Shown: in pieces, positions 1,994 to 59,030 of the stretch
Position numbering within the stretch: the stretch's first letter is position 1
Layout of the letters: every line of letters begins with the position of its first letter
Source of the DNA: Acanthochromis polyacanthus
Lineage: Eukaryota > Chordata > Actinopteri > Pomacentridae
Assembly: GCF_021347895.1 (NCBI RefSeq)
Contig: NC_067132.1
Span: 5,212,268 to 5,276,267, forward strand
DNA length: 64,000 nucleotides
Reading direction: 5' to 3'
Program-made: the position numbers and the translations under genes
The notes under the pieces: model-generated
Seen by the model: only the letters and a program-made list of their open reading frames with translations
The model's database searches: none
What the model was told of the DNA's origin: nothing

Positions 1994-3028
<1,035 letters not shown>

Positions 3029-3196
3029 GTTCAGTGTGGTACACACCTTTTCACCAAACAGCAGGGTGACTACTTGTCTCCCTTTAAATAGGCAGACTGA
3101 CTGATTATGAGTTTGGAAACACCTGTGATGTCAATTAAATGACACACCTGAGTTAATCATGTCACTCTGGTCAAATAGTTTTCAATCTTTTATAGA

Positions 3197-22258: not shown

Positions 22259-23069
22259 TGGAATAACAAAGACTGTGGCAGTCTAGATGAACAAATCAGG
22301 TGATTGCTTTAAAAAAAGGGATGTTATCTTGTCTCCATTTCACATCCCTGGATCTTATTCATGACTTTTGCATTTGACCTTGTTTGTACATAAGAATAAT
22401 TTCAGAACTGTTATGGAGTTTTTCAGTTTTTCATAGGAAAATCAACTTCTTGTGGATCAGACATCAGTTCTGTCTTCTTTTACTTTGATTACAAACTGAC
22501 AAAGACACAAAGTGTAAATGTTGCCCAGTGCCTGCTGCATAGTCTGAAATGTGTTATGCTGTTTTTTACCTCACAACAAGTGCTACTTGGCTTTTGAAAA
22601 GTAAACTCTTCTGTCATCTCAACTTTGTTTACTTTATGAAAAAGAACATGAAATGAACACACAAGAAGCAAACTGCTCTACAGGGACTGGAAGTAGCTTG
22701 CACATAAGACTGAAGTGTAATCGCAAGGCTAATTGTCACAAAGCTGCTTCAGGGCTCTGATTACCAACTGGTCCTTCTGACAGAGCTGAGTGCATCTTCA
22801 GGCTGATTGCATCTCACAGGAGGTGACTGTGTCCTGAGATTATGAGGCTGCCAATGACAGTACTTTGAAGGTTCTTTGTCAAAAACACCAAGGGAATGAT
22901 ATGCATACCAAAGATCCAAAATTATCTGTGAAATAGTTTTGAGCCCCTTCTGAGATTAAAGTTACTCTGTAGAATCTAGCAGGGGCACGTCTTCAGTTAG
23001 CTGCTTCATTTATTTTGATCCTAAATACATGTTTCCAGTGGGCTCCTCACAGTTGACATGGACAACATG
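22259..23069. other. unassigned DNA
   Basis: No gene recognised. The block 22690-22880 is free of recognisable repeats and could be noncoding conserved DNA; there is no proof. Confidence 0.4.
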
Positions 23070-23709
23070 CAGTGCCTATTAACGGTATTCACTCCCATTG
23101 GAAGTTTTCCCCATTTAAACTTTTTAACATTAAATCATGGTCAGTTAGTGTTTTTTTTTTGTTTGTTTGTTTGGTTTTTTTTAGTTTTTCTATCTCAAGG
23201 TGAATACAGATTTCATTAAAATAATATTAATTATTTAGAAAATTGAATTATTCCCTAACTTCAAGTCACTTTTTACAGTATTTCCCCCTTCTTCTGGTCC
23301 AGCTCTGTCAGTTGCACAGGGATCATGAGTCATCAGCTCTTTTCGACTTCAGTTACAAATTCTCAGTTGGGCTGAGGTCCAGACTCTGAGTTGACCATTC
23401 CCTAAAATTCATTTTGTTGTCTTTAAACTGGTCCTGTATAGCTTTGGCTGGTTTAGTGTCAAACTAGAAAACAAATCTCACCAAGTTCTCTTCTAGATGG
23501 CATCACGCTGTCATGGATTTACTAATATTTTTCTGCATTAATCTGACCTTCTGCCTTTACCAGTCGTCAAGGTACTGAGAAGCATTCCCACGTTATGATG
23601 TTGTCTGCCAAACATAATGCCTCATCTGATGACTTCAGATTCTCCCACATGCCTTCTGTTGAGTTCTAGTCAAGATTTAGTACGATCTTTTCATCAACAA
23701 TGGCTTTGT

Positions 23710-24465
23710 CTTTGCCACTCCTTCATGAAGCTCTGACTTTGCCACTCCTTGATGAAGCTCTGACTTTGCCACTCCTTCATGAAGCTCTGTCTTTGCCACT
23801 CCTTGATGAAGCTCTGACTTTGCCACTCCTTCATGAAGCTCTGTCTTTGCCACTCCTTCATGAAGCTTTGTCTTTGCCACTCCTTCATGAAGCTCTGTCT
23901 TTGCCACTCCTTCATGAAGCTTTGTCTTTGCCACTCCTTCATGAAGCTCTGTCTTTGCCACTCCTTCATGAAGCTTTGTCTTTGCCACTCCTTCATGAAG
24001 CTCTGTCTTTGCCACTCCTTCATGAAGCTTTGTCTTTGCCACTCCTTCATGAAGCTCTGTCTTTGCCACTCCTTCATGAAGCTTTGTCTTTGCCACTCCT
24101 TCATGAAGCTTTGTCTTTGCCACTCCTTCATGAAACTTTGTCTTTGCCACTCCTTCATGAAGCCCTGACTTTGCCACTCCTTCATGAAGCTTTGACTTTG
24201 CCACTCCTTCATGAAGCTTTGTCTTTGCCACTCCTTCATGAAACTTTGTCTTTGCCACTCCTTCATGAAGCCCTGACTTTGCCACTCCTTCATGAAGCTT
24301 TGACTTTGCCACTCCTTCATGAAGCTTTGTCTTTGCCACTCCTTCATGAAGCTTTGTCTTTGCCACTCCTTCATGAAACTTTGTCTTTGCCACTCCTTCA
24401 TGAAGCCCTGACTTTGCCACTCCTTCATGAAGCTTTGACTTTGCCACTCCTTCATGAAGCTACAG
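23710..24465 (-). repeat. 27-bp minisatellite, 28 units, inside Tc1 transposase DNA
   Basis: Each unit is a version of CTTTGCCACTCCTTCATGAA plus GCTCTGA. Unit starts fall at 23710, 23737 and so on to 24439, exactly 27 x 27 bases apart, so there is no net length change across the array. Since 27 is divisible by three and the unit lacks stops, both strands stay open throughout, giving long spurious frames. In the transposase sense each unit reads (S/T)-x-(L/F)-H-(E/Q)-G-V-A-K. Variants are ordered: a 4-5 unit block occurs three times at 24120-24460, and alternating two-unit forms fill 23850-24120. Confidence 0.95.
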
Positions 24466-24885
24466 TATACACAGCCTTTCCTATCTCAGCAGCTGAAGCT
24501 TGTAACTGCTTCAGAGGAGTCGGAAGGGTCTTGTTTCTCTCTCTGGTATCTTTCTTGGACAGTCACTCAGACTTGCTCTCATTTCTTGATGAGAATGAAT
24601 GTAACTGTAGTATAAGGGATATTCATCCATCCATTCCTCCATTTTATTCCGCTTGTCCGGGGCCAGGTAGAGGCAGCAGATCAAGCAGGTCATTCCAAAA
24701 ATCCTTCCCCCAGCAACGCTTTCGAGTTGTTTCTGGGGGATTCTGAGGCATTCCCAGGCCAGATGAGATGCATAATCCCTCCAGCAAGCTCTAGGTCTAG
24801 CCCCCAGGCAGACATGTTCAGAAAACCTCCAAAAGAAGTATCCCTGGAAGCAGGGAGTAAAGCCACTACTCTTTTGCCTCTAAAG

Positions 24886-27136
24886 CAGGGGTGGGGAACC
24901 TTTTTCATATCAAGGGCCATTTCAATTTTTATAAAGTCCTCCAAGGGCCATACTATTATGAACACATAACAAGTGATGAAAAAAAGACGAAGAAAGTCTA
25001 TAACTGCTGTGTTACTAAGCCTCATGATTGCTGCATTTGTAGACTCACCTAATGCGATGGCTGGAACTGTTTTTCTTTAGCGAGGCGTCTGATGTCAGCT
25101 GGCAGTGATGATGATGCTACTCGAAGCTGGTTTTTCAAGTTTGAGTTAGTCAGTCTTGAGCTGAGGCGAGTCTTTGCAAGAGTCAGTTTTGAAAAGAACT
25201 GTTCACAGCGGTACGTTGTCCCAAACAGAGATGCAAACTTCAGGGCATGTCTCCTCAGGATGGGAAAATCCTCAGCACGGACATACAGTTTGTAAAAGTC
25301 CAGCAGAGAGAGGTTGTTGTACTTGGCTTTGAGCTCGTTGTTGTTTTGCAGCTCAATTATTTCCATTTGGAGGTTGTCTGGCACATCAGATGGTTGCACA
25401 TCAGATGGTTGCACATTAAATGGCGTCTCAAACATATCGAGTTCCTTTTGTATATTTTTCACATCATGAAACCTCTCATCAAATGCCTGGATGAGTTTTG
25501 AACACTTACCAGCATATTCAGTTGTAACATCAGGCTTTTGTTCTTGTAGGGTGGGAAAGTGCACAGTGTTTCCCCCTTCCAGTTGTCCTTGCCACAGCCT
25601 TAACTTCACTTCAAATGATTTCACATTTGAAAGCAGAGAGCTGATGAGCTGACTGGGACCTTGCAGCTTCATGTTTAGCTCTGACAGGTGCTGGCTGATG
25701 TCCACCATGAAGGCCAGATGACAGAGGAACTTGCCATCACTGAGCTCCACGATAGGTTTCCCCTTCATCTCCATGAAGCGTCTGACTTCTTCCCACAGTG
25801 TATAAAACCGCGCGAGCATATTTGCACGACTCAGCCATCGCACTTCACAATGATACACCAGATCACCATACTCTGACTCAAGCTCGCTGAGTAGCTCCAT
25901 GAACTGACGGTTGTTCAGCCCTCTGCTTTTAATGAAGTTTACGGTGGACACAACTGTTTTCATCACATGGGTAAGCTTCAGGGAATGTGCACATAAACGC
26001 TCTTGATGTATGATACAGTGGCATACAACTAAATCATTTGGATCCAGACTCAGACGGCTCATTTCTTTTTTGACTAATGCAGTCGATCCTTTTTGCGCGC
26101 CAACCATTGCGCATTGCTACTGACCGTCAGTGGCGATGCCGCTCAACTTCTCAAATGGCAGTTCAAAATTGTTCATGGCCACAATAACTTGATTAAACAA
26201 ATCTTCACCTTTAGTAGTGCCATGCATGGCTTGCAAAGACAGCAACTCCTCCTTCGTTTCAAACTCGGTCGTAATCCCACGCACAAAAATGGCAAGCTGC
26301 GCTGTGTTTGTGATGTCTGTTGTCTCATCACAAGCCAGAGAAAAATATTCAAAGTCTCTTGCAGTGTTCTTCAATGTTTTTTCAATATCTTGCGCCATAT
26401 CAGTAATCCTGTCTGAAACAGTTCTTCAAGACAAACTGACGCTTTTGAATAATTTCACTTTGTCGGGCGCGAGAAACTCCACGGTGGCTACCAGGCACTC
26501 CTTCACGAACTCTCCTTCAGCATGAGGTTTCAGCTTCTTGGCTATTAATTCACTCACCACAAAACTTGCACGTGTAATATTCTCTCTGTCAGTCTGTGGT
26601 TGTGTGAAAGCTGCTTGTTGCGCATCCAAACTCCGACGAAGAGTGTTAATTTTATCCAAACGCATTTGTCCTCTCAACTCCTGGAGTTTAGCATGTTTCG
26701 AGCTGTAATGGCGCTCCACATTTGCCTTTTTCATCACCGCCAGCGCCTCGCCACACACAAGGCACACTGGCTTGCCTTTCACTTCAACAAAGAAAAAGTC
26801 ATTTGTCCATTTTTCCTGGAATACGTGGCACTCTGCATCCACCTTCCTTTTCTTGACAGTCGCCAATGATGCATCACTTGTCTTGTGTCAATCACTCCGG
26901 CCCAATGCAATGACACGTACATCGCATGTTGTATTCACTGACCCTGACGTTGACTCGGACACGTCTGTTTTTTCTCAGAAAACTAATGCCTGGCAATTTT
27001 TCCGCCCATAATTTTTTATTTATTCATATATGCATAAATGAAGATATAAAATATAAAAATTGTATTGCATTGCGGGCCATTTGAAATCGTCTCGCGGGCC
27101 GTATACGGCCCGGAGGCCGGACATTCCCCATCCCTG
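24886..27136 (-). mobile_element. hAT element hAT-1 (2.25 kb), inserted in the LINE
   Basis: Ends CAGGGGTGGGGAACC and, inverted, CAGGGATGGGGAATG: imperfect termini of about 13 bp typical of hAT. Flanks CTCTAAAG (24878-24885) and CTGTAAAG (27137-27144) match 7 of 8, the 8-bp hAT target duplication. Internal ends are rich in GGGCC words (AAGGGCCAT left, GCGGGCCGTATACGGCCC right), as subterminal transposase sites usually are. One transposase gene on the minus strand fills most of it. Confidence 0.9.
25049..26866 (-). pseudogene. hAT transposase, 605 codons, two in-frame stops
   Basis: A single reading frame runs from MATVKKRKVDAECHVFQ to KEKQFQPSH with no frameshift. Interruptions are two stop codons: TGA at 26426-26428 (after SVSLS) and TAG at 26117-26119 (after GIATDGQ). 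The BED-type zinc finger is near residues 30-60 (PVCLVCGEALAV then ERHYSSKH). A catalytic-core aspartate region reads LACDETTDITNTAQLAIFVR, and CHCIIHQERLCA, VVSTVNFIKSRGLNNRQF and VRWLSRANMLARF follow. The C-terminus has the hAT dimerisation motif FGTTYRCEQFFSKL and SRLTNSNLKNQLRVA. It resembles the transposases that gave rise to GTF2IRD2-, SCAND3- and ZBED-type host proteins. A 15-bp tandem duplication (QPSDV repeated) lies near 25380-25420. Confidence 0.93.
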
Positions 27137-27296
27137 CTGTAAAGGATCAGCAGCTCTACTCTGAGCCCCCTCCGGATGTCTGATCTTCTCCACCTATCTC
27201 TAAGGCCCAGACACCCTACAGAGGAAGCTCATTTCAGCCACTTGTATCTTGTTCTTGTTCTGATCTTGTTCTTTTGGTCACACCCAGAGCTAATGA

Positions 27297-27753
27297 CTAT
27301 AGGTGAGGGATGGAACGTAGATGGATGGTAAATCTCTTCACCACGACGGTTCGGTACAGCCCCTGCATTACTGCTGATGCTGTACCAATCTGCCTGTCCA
27401 TCTCTCGCTCCATTTTCTCATCACTTGTGAACAAAATCCTGAGATACTTGAACTCCTTCGCTTGGACACAGAACTCCCTCCAACCCAGAGGGCTCAATCC
27501 ACCGGTTTCCATCAGAGAACCATGGCCCCAGACTTGGAGGTTCTGATCCACATCTCCGCCGCTTCACACTTGGCCGCAAACAGCTCAAGTGCTGCTGAAG
27601 GTCTGATGAAGTCAACAGAACCACATCATCTGTAAAAAGCAGAGACACAATCCTGAGGTCCCCACACTGGACACCCTCCTCATCCCAGCTGCACCTTGTG
27701 GAGTCCAACACCCACTGGAAACCTGTCTGACTTTGTGATGAGCATGTGGACAC
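27297..27753 (-). pseudogene. LINE reverse transcriptase fragment
   Basis: Two overlapping frames give RT motifs: GDLRIVSLLFTDDVVLL is motif C, where F-A-D-D is usual and F-T-D-D is seen here, and EFKYLRILFTSDEKMEREMD with SAVMQGLYRTVVVKR is the region following the palm. The frames overlap, which shows at least one frameshift. The domain is only partial: the endonuclease and RT motifs before C are absent because the element is 5' truncated at 27790. It reverse-transcribed its own RNA at target nicks when intact. Confidence 0.85.
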
Positions 27754-27945
27754 AGCTCTAGCTTTGGTTGGCAGTGCTTGCTGAGGTAGTTAAGGGATAT
27801 TCAGGGACTTACAAATGTTCTTGTGTCCATTCCTTGACTTAGCTGTTTCAATAATCTTGGTTGCGTAATTGTTTGGAGTGTTCTTTTGTCTTCGTGGTGC
27901 ACTAACAGCCAGGACTACTGATTATTCCCACGAACAGTCCAATGA

Positions 27946-37832: not shown

Positions 37833-40105
37833 AATCCATCCATCCTACAATTCTACAATTTCATTTCGCAGACGCTTTTGTCTCTTAAAAGTAGAAAGGG
37901 ACTCAGCAGAACACACAGAGATTGGTAGTTTGTTCCACCATTTGGGAACAACAGAGGAGAAGAGTCTGGTTAGAGATTTGGAGCCGTGCTGGGCTGGAAG
38001 CACCAGGCGTCTCTCACATGCAGAACGAAGTGGGCATGAAGGGGAGTAGACCTGGATCAGGGAATCCAGGTAGGCTGGGGCCGTTCTTGTAAATGTTTTG
38101 TAAGCCAGGAGGAGAGTTTTGAATTTGATTCTGGCTGCAACTGGAAGCTAGTGAAGGGAGATGAACAGGGGAGTGACATGAGCTCTTCTGGGCTGGTTGA
38201 AGACCAGACGTGCTGCTGCATTCTGGATCATCTGTAGAGGTTTGACTGTACATGCAGGGAGACCTGCCAGAAGAGAGTTGCAGTAGTCAATGCGTGACAT
38301 CACAAGAGCCTGAACCAGAAGTTGTGTGGCCTGTTGGGTCAGGACAAGATCGAGAAAGTGAGGCCACCTGAACCTTTGGTCTGCTGGTCATCAATCATGA
38401 CACCCAGGTTTCTGGCTGAGTTTGTGGGCACAAGTAGGCTCGAGTGAAGTTGGACACTGATCTGAGGCTGAACAGATGGACAAGCTGGAAAGACCATGAG
38501 TTCAGTCTTAGACAGATTCAGCTGAAGGTGCCGTTCCTTCATCCATGTGGAGATATCAGCCGGACATGCTGATATCCGAGCTGAAACTGTTGTTTCGTCA
38601 GGTGGAAAAGAGAGGAAAAGCTGAGTGTCGTCAGCATAACAGTGGTAGGAGAAGCCATGGGAGCGGATCACTGCACCAAGTGAGGTGGTGTACAGAGAGA
38701 AGAGTAAGGGACCAAGCACTGACCCCTGAGGGACCCCAGTTGATAGGTCATGTGACCTCGACACCTCCCCTTGCCATGACACTCTGAAGGATCTGCCTGT
38801 GAGGTAGGACTTGAACCACAACAGGACAGAACCTGAGATGCTGAGCTCAGAGAGTGGAGAGGAGGATTTGATGGTTCACGGTGTCAAAGGCAGCAGACAA
38901 GTCCAGCAGCAGTAGGACAGAGGACTGACCAGCAGCTCTCACCAGTCGCAGAGATTCTGTGACTGATCGGAGTGCAGTCTCAGTGGAGTGGTCGCACCTG
39001 AAGCCTGACTGAAAAGGGTCAAGTTGGTTGTTGTTCCGCAGATGTTCAGAGACTTGGTTAAACACTGAGCGCTCCAGTATTTTCGACAGGAATGGTAGAA
39101 GTGAGACTGGCCTGTAGTTTTCAACCTGGGCTGGGTTGAGATGAGGCTTTTTGAGCAGTGGGGTGACGCGGGCTTGTTTAAAAGTAGCAGGAAAAATGGC
39201 AGTTTCCAGGGAGGAGTTGACAATGTGCGTGACTGCAGGTTTGATTGTGGGCAAGATGGTCTGCAGGATGCTGGTGGGTATTGGATCGAGAGGACATGTT
39301 GTAGGTTTTGAGCTCAGAAGAAGCCTGGAGACCTCATCCTCACTCAGAGGAGCAAAAGAGCAGAGTGAAGAAGCAGTAGTGGGTTTGAGCTGACTGGACT
39401 GGTCAGGCTCAGAGAACTGGTTGCTGATTGCAGCCACCTTTTCAGTGAAAAAGGAGGCAAACATGTCTGGAGTCAGCTCAGTGGACGGCTGAGCAGCTGG
39501 AGGAGAAAGCAAGGAGTTGAACGCCATAAACAGTTTTCTGGAATCAGAAGCTGCACAGATCTTGTTCTGATAAAAAGCTTTCTTTGCAGACTGCAAGCAG
39601 GAGGGAAAGGAAGCAAGTTTCTGTTTGTATGAGGACAAATCAGCGGGTTTTTGGGATTTACGCCACTTTCTTTCTGCTGCCCTGAGTCCAGCTCTTTGTT
39701 CTCTCAGAACTTCAGAGAGCCATGGACTTGGTTGTTTTTTCTTGGCCGGTTTGGACACCAGGGGGCAGAGTTTGTCCAAAGAGGATGCCAGAGAGGAACA
39801 GAGTGTTTCAGTAGCCTCATTAACAGGAAGTGAGGAGAAGTGTGATTGGTCAGGCATGACAGAGCTCACCTCCTCAGACAGCTGAGCTGCTGTGAGGGAC
39901 TTCAGATTTCTGCGGAAGGAGACCATCTGTGTTAGTGACTGCAATTGCGGAAAGGCAGCCATTTTACCAAGAAATGGTCTGACAGGTGTAGTGGAGTAAC
40001 TGTCACCTCTGCTATGGAGCAGTTACGAGTCAGCACCAAGTCAAGGACTTTATCAGCTTTGTGGGTGGGAGGAGACGGTACCAGTACAAGTGCAAAAGTG
40101 CATCC
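37833..40105 (-). mobile_element. L2-type LINE, 5' truncated
   Basis: About 2.27 kb non-LTR retrotransposon. The 3' end, on the left, shows the CGTCTGCGAAATG motif then a short GGATGGATT tail. The 5' truncation, on the right, lies within the endonuclease domain. It adjoins the SINE-like repeat at 40106. A second, much shorter tail of the same family is at 49205-49735 on the plus strand. Confidence 0.88.
38339..40105 (-). pseudogene. L2-type ORF2: partial endonuclease, reverse transcriptase
   Basis: From the 5' end: the tail of the apurinic-type endonuclease (THKADKVLDLVLTRNCS, then VTPLHLSDHF), a linker of about 200 residues, then reverse transcriptase blocks [53 protein letters not shown] (motif A), [14 protein letters not shown] (motif B), [12 protein letters not shown] (motif C, catalytic Y-A-D-D) and [11 protein letters not shown] (D). 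A frameshift in the CTCTCT run near 38847 splits the frame just after motif A. A second disruption, probably a deletion, follows NLGVMIDDQ near 38360. The C-terminal domain continues out of frame toward 37860. Compared with full-length L2 ORF2, most of the endonuclease is missing. Confidence 0.9.
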
Positions 40106-42545: not shown

Positions 42546-43615
<1,070 letters not shown>

Positions 43616-57238: not shown

Positions 57239-59030
57239 CAGGCATGTCAAACTCAGTTTGGCTCTGGGGCCGGATCCAGACTTTCTGTTCTCAGGTGGGC
57301 CGGATCAGTTAAAGAATGTCAACTCCAAATATTTAGCTTTGTTTTTCAGTACTATGCTTTATCATTCAGCCTCCATTTGTAGCCTACCCTACATATTATA
57401 ATAACGGATGACAAGGGATCTTTTCTAAGCACAACACATTTATTCACAAACAATGGAAAGAAAATGATTTTCATGTTTGGTGGTGAATGTGTTAACTGGT
57501 TTATTTTAACAGTTGAGTGAATGCAGTTTTACACCTGAACCAACTCACCACACTAAACAAACTCAAGTGGGAGCTATGAAAAAATATTTTCACCTTAATT
57601 TTCATACTGCTTTGAAATAAATAAAAAAAGAAATACAAAATAAAATAAATAAACGAAATAAAAAGTTATAGCAGTGCATGGGCAATAAGATTAGACTACA
57701 TCAGATCAAACTACTAGGCTGGGCCTACTGAAGCTGAGAATATACTGCACAATATTAATTGTCTTTAATATGAAACCAGATTAATCTTATTTTTAATGAT
57801 CTGTATTCATGAGTGCAAACAAATTTCGTGTCATCACACTTTTTTTCTCTCTCTCACTGCACTCCTGCAGTCTACTTGCTGCTGCTGGCTCCTGAAACTT
57901 GGCATCTTTTTGCCTTCACAAGTGCATCGATATTAGGTGTGAAATCCTGAGTAGCAGCACATTTAACAATGTCATTCAAGTGTTTATTTGTTAACCTTGA
58001 GCGCTGCTTTGTTTTATTATTGTTCATTACGGAGAACACCTGTTCACAAAGATAAGTAGTCCCAAACATGGATAGAACCTTTGCAGTCATGGCTGTTAAT
58101 TCGGGGTAACCTGGCACGAGATATTGATAAAACGTATCCAATCCCACGGACCCAAATTTATCCTTCATAGCGGAATCGCACTGCAAGTCAATAAGCTCGA
58201 GTTGAATGTCAGCTGGCATATCAGAAGGCTTCACTGTAAATGGCGAGCGAAAAAAGCCAAATTTGTTCTCAGGTTCACTGAATACCTGAAACCTCTGCTC
58301 AAACTCTCGCAGCAAATCTGTTATGTTGTCTTTATATTTATCCAAATCATTATCGGGACGGTCCGGTGCCTTCGGACGCACAGCTGTGACACAAGAGAAA
58401 TGCGCGGTGTCACCGTTGGATAGCTGAGACTCCCACAGTGACAGTTTCATCTTGAACACACTTATGCTGTCGTAATATTGAGTGACAACTCTGTTACAGC
58501 CCTGCAATGTAGTGTTAAGTGTATTCAAGTGTTGTGTAATATCAACCTTTATGATGAGTCTCATAGTGGCGCCGAATATTAAACTCTTTGAACACTGCAA
58601 CTTGCTGATTACATACCAAGCACACTGGTTTCGCATCCACTTCTGTGAATAAATACTTCTCAGTCCATTTTTCCTGGAAAACTCTGCACTCCATGTCCAC
58701 TTTTCTTTTTTTTGACAGTGCCATTTTGGGAAGGGTGTGTTGACCGATAACTTGTTTAGTAGTGGTGAATGTGAAGCAAGATTGCCAGTTTATTTTTACT
58801 TGGACACATCACGTTGCGAATGTTGGACGTGAGCGCTTTTGCACATTTACTGCCCTTTAGCGGCCGGAGGGAGCATTTGGTTTGTATTTATTTTAAAAAA
58901 TCACAACTTTTGATAGAAATGAGCTAGAGACTTGCTTATTTTTTTGACATACTCAGAAATTTATGCCGGGCCGGATTAAATCATCCAACGGGCTGGGTCC
59001 GGCCCGCGGGCCGTATGTTTGACATGCCTG
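57239..59030 (-). mobile_element. hAT element hAT-2, internally deleted, perfect 8-bp duplication
   Basis: Termini CAGGCATGTCAAAC and GTTTGACATGCCTG are perfect 14-bp inverted repeats. The flanks are TTCTAGAC at 57231-57238 and TTCTAGAC at 59031-59038, an exact 8-bp hAT duplication. GGGCC-rich subterminal blocks occur on both sides. Size 1792 bp, short for the family because the centre of the transposase gene is gone. The intact duplication suggests a relatively recent insertion. Confidence 0.96.
57872..58724 (-). pseudogene. hAT transposase, internal deletion and frameshift
   Basis: The N-terminus MALSKKRKVDMECRVFQEK is followed by a BED-type finger (PVCLVCNQQVAV then RRHYETHH) and abruptly joins, at about 58545, the C-terminal half VDITQHLNTLNTTLQ. 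The join changes frame, so the N-terminal frame stops at once. Compared with the 605-codon hAT-1 protein, roughly 300 codons with the central catalytic region are deleted. The C-terminal half is otherwise open to the end: FFRSPFTVKPSDMPADIQLE, FGTTYLCEQVFSVMNNN (dimerisation domain) and SRLTNKHLNDIVKCA, ending GASSSK. The same general family as hAT-1, but a different subfamily by termini. Confidence 0.92.

Follow-up and report, generated by a model that had tools for sequence, protein, structure and literature searches.

Minisatellites derived from transposable elements are well known, and Alu, B1, MaLR, Gmr9 and others are given as their sources in the accessible sections of two publications (PMC6947457, PMC9659126). 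In the model of Haber and Louis from 1998, as it is summarised in the accessible sections of PMC6947457 and PMC3389668, a minisatellite is born between direct repeats of 5-10 bp. For human arrays derived from transposable elements, the part of PMC3389668 that could be used here reports flanking direct repeats of 5-20 bp in 300 of 7,276 cases, and names AluS and LTR12 as hot spots. In Xenopus, a satellite in the Tc1/mariner MITE miDNA4 varies in copy number between loci, according to the extracts at hand of PMC12628747 and PMC9659126. Among the titles and abstract beginnings listed from an open-licence library, we came across no paper that deals with minisatellites derived from the coding part of a fish Tc1 element. 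The beginnings of minisatellites are difficult to observe, as the unexpanded state has usually disappeared; at the locus described here, this state is preserved in sister copies of the transposon.

The window (the whole stretch of 64,000 nucleotides that was analysed) contains 28 head-to-tail units of 27 bp at positions 23703-24458, which follow each other without indels when the sequence is cut in register from 23703. Tandem Repeats Finder, run on the window, reports 23703-24461 with a period of 27, 28.1 copies, 94% matches and 0% indels, and its score of 1315 heads the list for the window. Both the program and the cutting in register bear out the first-pass annotation in its description of an indel-free array of 28 units of 27 bp; the array does lie where it had been placed (23710-24465), with both ends off by 7 bases. 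The units fall into eight types with a mean pairwise divergence of 5.5%. Their order on the plus strand, ABCDCEAEAEAEAEAAFGHAFGHAAFGH, shows three zones: the left end is varied, the next zone consists of blocks of two units (EA), and the last one of blocks of four (AFGH). Unit-type identity peaks at lag 2 (9/26) and lag 4 (11/24). A perfect 10-bp palindrome, CTTCATGAAG, is present in 23 copies in the array units (23703-24462) and is a product of the private changes of this copy. The array and the transposon copy around it comprise the following features, given in positions of the window.

23066..23702, minus strand: decayed remains of the Tc1 copy's catalytic (C-terminal) half and of its 3' end, in separate matched pieces
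23066-23143, 23192-23244, 23294-23448 and 23526-23603, minus strand: Tc1 matched pieces left of the array
23068..23094, minus strand: remnant of the Tc1 3' terminal inverted repeat, with 6 mismatches of 27
23638-23737, minus strand: matched Tc1 piece running into the array
23677..23679, minus strand: stop codon TAA, closing the sense frame of the array about 8 codons past the repeats
23703..24458, minus strand: 28-unit, 27-bp minisatellite, its unit corresponding to the Tc1 transposase linker (LYGRVAMRK region)
24459..24625, minus strand: Tc1 sequence upstream of the array, with a match at 24467-24570
24460..24462, minus strand: stop codon TAG, immediately preceding the sense frame of the array
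24626..27790, no strand assigned: later insertion splitting the Tc1 copy, with flanking 13-bp duplication and hAT-like ORFs
27791..27922, minus strand: N-terminal part of the same Tc1 copy, which resumes here, with a match at 27794-27922

The matched pieces on either side agree with the earlier proposal that Tc1 sequence flanks the array on both sides. In the upstream Tc1 sequence (24459-24625), about 30 bp of the linker region are missing beside the array. Further upstream, the copy is split by an insertion whose ORFs comprise a hAT dimerisation domain and a zinc finger, and the same 13-bp duplication, TAAGGGATATTCA, is found on both of its sides (24613-24625 and 27791-27803). Because a target duplication of this length would be better explained by a LINE than by a hAT element, this segment of about 3.2 kb (24613-27803) possibly consists of nested insertions. 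A 5' terminal repeat of the Tc1 copy was not found between 22000 and 32000 when up to 8 mismatches of 27 were allowed. The window copy is a decayed remnant of its family and not an intact element; it is a dead fossil in which no reading frame is protected. The first-pass annotation had recorded neither the deletion of about 30 bp, nor the insertion of about 3.2 kb that later split the copy, nor the second site of expansion in the transposase gene (KHGGGS) that is described below.

Other remnants of mobile elements are present in the window. Two further Tc1-like transposase genes (1994-3130 and 42601-43209) belong to another subfamily with its own 17-residue linker, and the second of them ends abruptly close to a tandem duplication of 37 bp (43141-43217). 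The segments 38339-40022 and 57872-58789 contain remnants of reverse transcriptase in two frames that overlap, as well as a second ORF resembling hAT.

The relationship between the repeat unit and the transposase linker is apparent at the DNA level. When the unit is compared with the linker of L027, a member of the young family introduced below, 22 of 27 bases match, while the best non-linker place gives 17 matches and 40 shuffled units give at most 18; the origin of the unit from the Tc1 linker, as it had been put forward in the first-pass annotation, is therefore right. The linker of L031, a family member with a long open frame, reads SKLYGRVAMRKPLLKKSH, and the array end has a reading like KLHEGVAKTKPLLMKRS; on the minus strand, the downstream end of the array reads LHEGVAKTKPLLMKRS. 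The peptide GVAKTKPLLMKRSY and the unit LHEGVAK, both mentioned earlier, are present, and the transposase sense is that of the minus strand. Two observations had been named in advance as speaking against this origin: a unit unlike the linker, and an array elsewhere without Tc1 flanks. The similarity exists, and no second genomic place with the array was found when its own genome (957 Mb, 81 contigs) was searched at the DNA level with a 301-base query from the array; this search, which skips simple repeats and very common words, returned four matches, all within the array.

L031 contains the Pfam domains HTH_SB, HTH_Tnp_Tc3_2 and DDE_3 above the cut-off and matches the Sleeping Beauty transposase SB100X (5cr4) with an E value of 2.4e-88. 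A genome search with the right flank (24440-24640) recovered this locus and 39 others with 81-85% identity over about 100 bp (40 scored matches of 456 candidates), and a search with the left flank (23000-23712) recovered this locus and others with 67-88% identity (44 matches at 40 scored places of 402 candidates). These relatives are Tc1 copies, and the host element can be assigned to a family of Tc1/Sleeping Beauty-like transposons. As the unit is homologous to the sequence of the element at the array's own place, the array qualifies as a minisatellite born inside a transposable element. The sample of related loci used in the following comprises 68 loci, of which 29 are young (L006-L034) and 39 older (L036-L074). 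The young loci form a near-uniform Tc1 family, several members of which possess a full-length open transposase frame.

The unexpanded state of the linker can be read in these relatives. The linker was located in 44 of the 68 loci; 37 of them could be aligned gap-free, and seven, all of them older, were dropped. Direct repeats one unit apart are present in the unexpanded state, although they are weaker in the older relatives: the longest repeat spaced by 27 bp at the linker edges measures 5 bp in 25 of the 29 young copies (3-4 bp in the rest), and 6, 5, 4, 4, 4, 3, 2 and 2 bp in the eight older linkers, two of which hence reach at least 5 bp. In L027, the word GCTTT stands on both sides of the linker, exactly 27 bp apart. 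At position 6 of the unit, the upstream repeat has C and the downstream repeat G, each in 36 of the 37 aligned relatives. All 28 array units have G at this position (followed by A in 9 units and by T in 19), which fits the hybrid repeat that a first exchange running through the repeat should produce. The outermost left unit also carries G where C would be expected, an observation that counts against a birth between direct repeats; conversion within the array is our explanation for it, not a result. At positions 19, 20, 21 and 25, all 28 units agree with each other and differ from the majority of the relatives, and the array's base occurs in at most 2 of the 37. Since these private changes are common to all units, amplification, or a later homogenisation, followed the decay of the copy. 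The left end of the array begins with the repeat word, and the outer right repeat was lost in the deletion of about 30 bp, so that the flanks are unreadable in the window copy itself. Among the 68 related loci, there was no relative with two linker units or any other linker intermediate, and no second 27-bp linker array.

The reading that we favour, with a probability of about 0.7, takes the array for a neutral minisatellite that was born in a dead copy of Tc1, by slip or exchange between short repeats, once this copy had decayed. A replication slip or an unequal exchange between the two repeat words would have doubled the segment in the decayed copy, and later slips or exchanges on blocks of one, two and four units would have led to the 28 units seen today; the 27-bp register would then stem from this mode of growth and not from coding selection. 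The fact that the linker of the young family is bounded by GCTTT at 27 bp fits a birth by slippage or unequal exchange without proving it, and the weaker repeats in the older relatives, which are nearer in age to the window copy, leave room for a birth that needed no repeat. The first duplication could accordingly have resulted from the repair of a chance break or from microhomology-independent template switching, in which case GCTTT at 27 bp would be coincidental and slippage would account for the growth afterwards. We regard this as rather unlikely. Short direct repeats are abundant in L027, where 55 pairs of at least 5 bp are found at a spacing of 20-40 bp (mean of 30 and maximum of 50 in monoshuffles), six of the eight older linkers have less than 5 bp at their edges, and for the human arrays derived from transposable elements, the accessible sections of PMC3389668 attribute no more than 6% to flanking repeats or incomplete end units. 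Yet when all combinations of start and period (20-40 bp) in L027 are considered, only 1.06% have a junction homology of at least 5 bp, and both the 27-bp site and the 29-bp site of this copy, the two birth sites, have a junction homology of 5; furthermore, chance duplication has to contend with the hybrid base at position 6 in every unit of the array.

Under the favoured reading of a birth between short repeats, the same kind of event appears to have occurred at a second spot of the transposase, the KHGGGS segment, where the unit measures 29 bp and is bounded by TGTG or CTGTG. This spot is part of the catalytic domain. Tandem units of 29 bp are present there in 8 of the 68 related loci, all of them older (8/39 older, 0/29 young). 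When Tandem Repeats Finder was run on 58 relatives, it reported such arrays in L038 (44 copies), L051 (4.8), L053 (7.4) and L061 (37.9); counting of units by pattern added L046 (two units) and L062 (three tandem units), which brings the number to 6 of 58 loci, and ten further loci added L071 (two units) and L074 (17 units). L012 has two pattern matches that are 1.25 kb apart and not in tandem, and was not counted as an array. From unit to unit, 41 of 42 steps measure exactly 29 in L038, and 37 of 37 do so in L061. Of the 29 young copies, all without an array, 27 have TGTG on both sides at a distance of 29 bp; of 27 older loci with a single match, 5 have it. Because the young copies keep the repeat and nevertheless lack an array, the repeat alone is not enough, and their age may be the explanation. 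Direct repeats as a sufficient cause of expansion can thus be set aside, all the more so as two spots expanded in the sample despite the large number of repeat pairs in L027. The KHGGGS unit also has a 10-bp palindrome, CATCATGATG. Palindromes of this length (CTTCATGAAG, CATCATGATG) were considered as an additional factor and rejected, as they occur in 6 of 8 array loci versus 12 of 26 single loci, a difference without significance (Fisher p 0.23).

Whether the 29-bp arrays arose once or repeatedly was assessed by their divergence and by a tree. Units within an array differ by 7-10% in L038, L046, L051 and L061, and by about 12-14% between these arrays; in L053 (15%) and L062 (33%), the divergence inside the array is as great as that between arrays, which weakens the comparison. 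Matches outside the 29-bp arrays are mostly 71-82% identical. In a quick tree built from the sequence after the KHGGGS spot, with 29 older loci, five young ones and the window, the six array loci then known require six changes and do not cluster (shuffled mean of 5.6). Since this tree is star-like (3 of 32 branches starred), it is also compatible with a single origin of the arrays followed by their spread through transposition; independent births are likely.

The 29-bp arrays extend well beyond the sampled loci. A 27-base word that is expected only at the junction between two 29-bp units was counted with at most two mismatches and gave 7,346 + 7,824 = 15,170 matches genome-wide (0 + 0 for the reversed control); these are matches to unit junctions, and the Tc1 context is known for the eight array loci, which were chosen as Tc1 relatives. 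The first 100 perfect matches listed come from three contigs, where they occupy 29 distinct places; of the 71 spacings within clusters, 55 are exact multiples of 29. At C1:55383042-55384088 of the same genome, the junction spacings 200, 55, 142 and 113 repeat, and this represents a higher-order form of the 29-bp array.

It is conceivable, although we hold this somewhat less probable than its opposite, that the Tc1 transposase is a recurrent nursery of minisatellites, with fixed coding spots set by short direct repeats at 27 and 29 bp, independent births in many dead copies and a genome-wide class of arrays seeded from them. Our estimate for this wider proposal was initially even and was lowered a little because the edge repeats are kept mainly in the young copies. 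If it is true, thousands of sister copies would serve as natural replicates in which the birth of minisatellites can be measured.

Three further explanations for the array in the window fare considerably worse than a chance duplication. A pre-existing satellite might have been captured by, or inserted into, the Tc1 copy, a process that has been proposed for miDNA4 of Xenopus in the accessible part of PMC12628747; however, the unit is nothing other than the linker, at its proper place and in its proper orientation, and the array search matched only this genomic place, so that a captured satellite is close to being refuted and very improbable. Equally improbable is an assembly artefact, either in the form of a true copy number that differs or of an array that is itself a collapse or expansion: arrays of 756 bp can be mis-assembled, but this one has eight unit types in an ordered block structure and lies inside a contig of a genome assembled into 81 contigs for 957 Mb. 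That the array encodes an extended linker or a new repeat protein whose frame is kept by selection is scarcely credible, for although the period is divisible by three and 260 to 358 codons are open in three frames, the sense frame is closed by stops at both ends, the host copy is in pieces and the sister arrays have a 29-bp period.

The first-pass annotation had attached meaning to the kept transposase frame and had offered a filtering of indels as one explanation for the regularity of the array. Since the unit length of 27 is divisible by three, three of the six reading frames stay open along the entire array, and one more does so over part of its length. The sense frame is closed by TAG directly before the array and by TAA about 8 codons after it. 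As the 29-bp arrays in the same gene are nearly as regular, a filtering of indels for coding is unneeded, and the preservation of the frame has to be abandoned as a sign of selection.

The array in the window adds one more case to the known minisatellites derived from transposable elements. Of greater weight, and less expected, is the presence of at least two spots of expansion in this one transposase gene. A transposon family can in this way serve as a natural experiment with built-in replication, showing which short repeats produce arrays and which fail to do so. In comparison with other fish Tc1/Sleeping Beauty-like transposons, L031 possesses the same domains, whereas the copy in the window has decayed, was split by an insertion and bears an array. 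With the human minisatellites derived from transposable elements, the locus shares tandem units cut from such an element at favoured spots; the human cases concern retroelements, while here the coding sequence of a DNA transposon is affected at two spots and 15,170 junctions of the 29-bp type are found in a single genome. The nearest case of a tandem repeat within a Tc1/mariner-related element that we noticed is miDNA4 of Xenopus; as far as the extracts at hand show, it is a non-autonomous MITE for which the capture of an existing repeat has been proposed, whereas the unit described here is transposase coding sequence. The window array fits a birth as envisioned by Haber and Louis, followed by growth in blocks: as in their model, short direct repeats delimit the segment that becomes the unit and is then multiplied by slips or exchanges, with the difference that the right-hand repeat has been lost here and the repeat is read in the sister copies.
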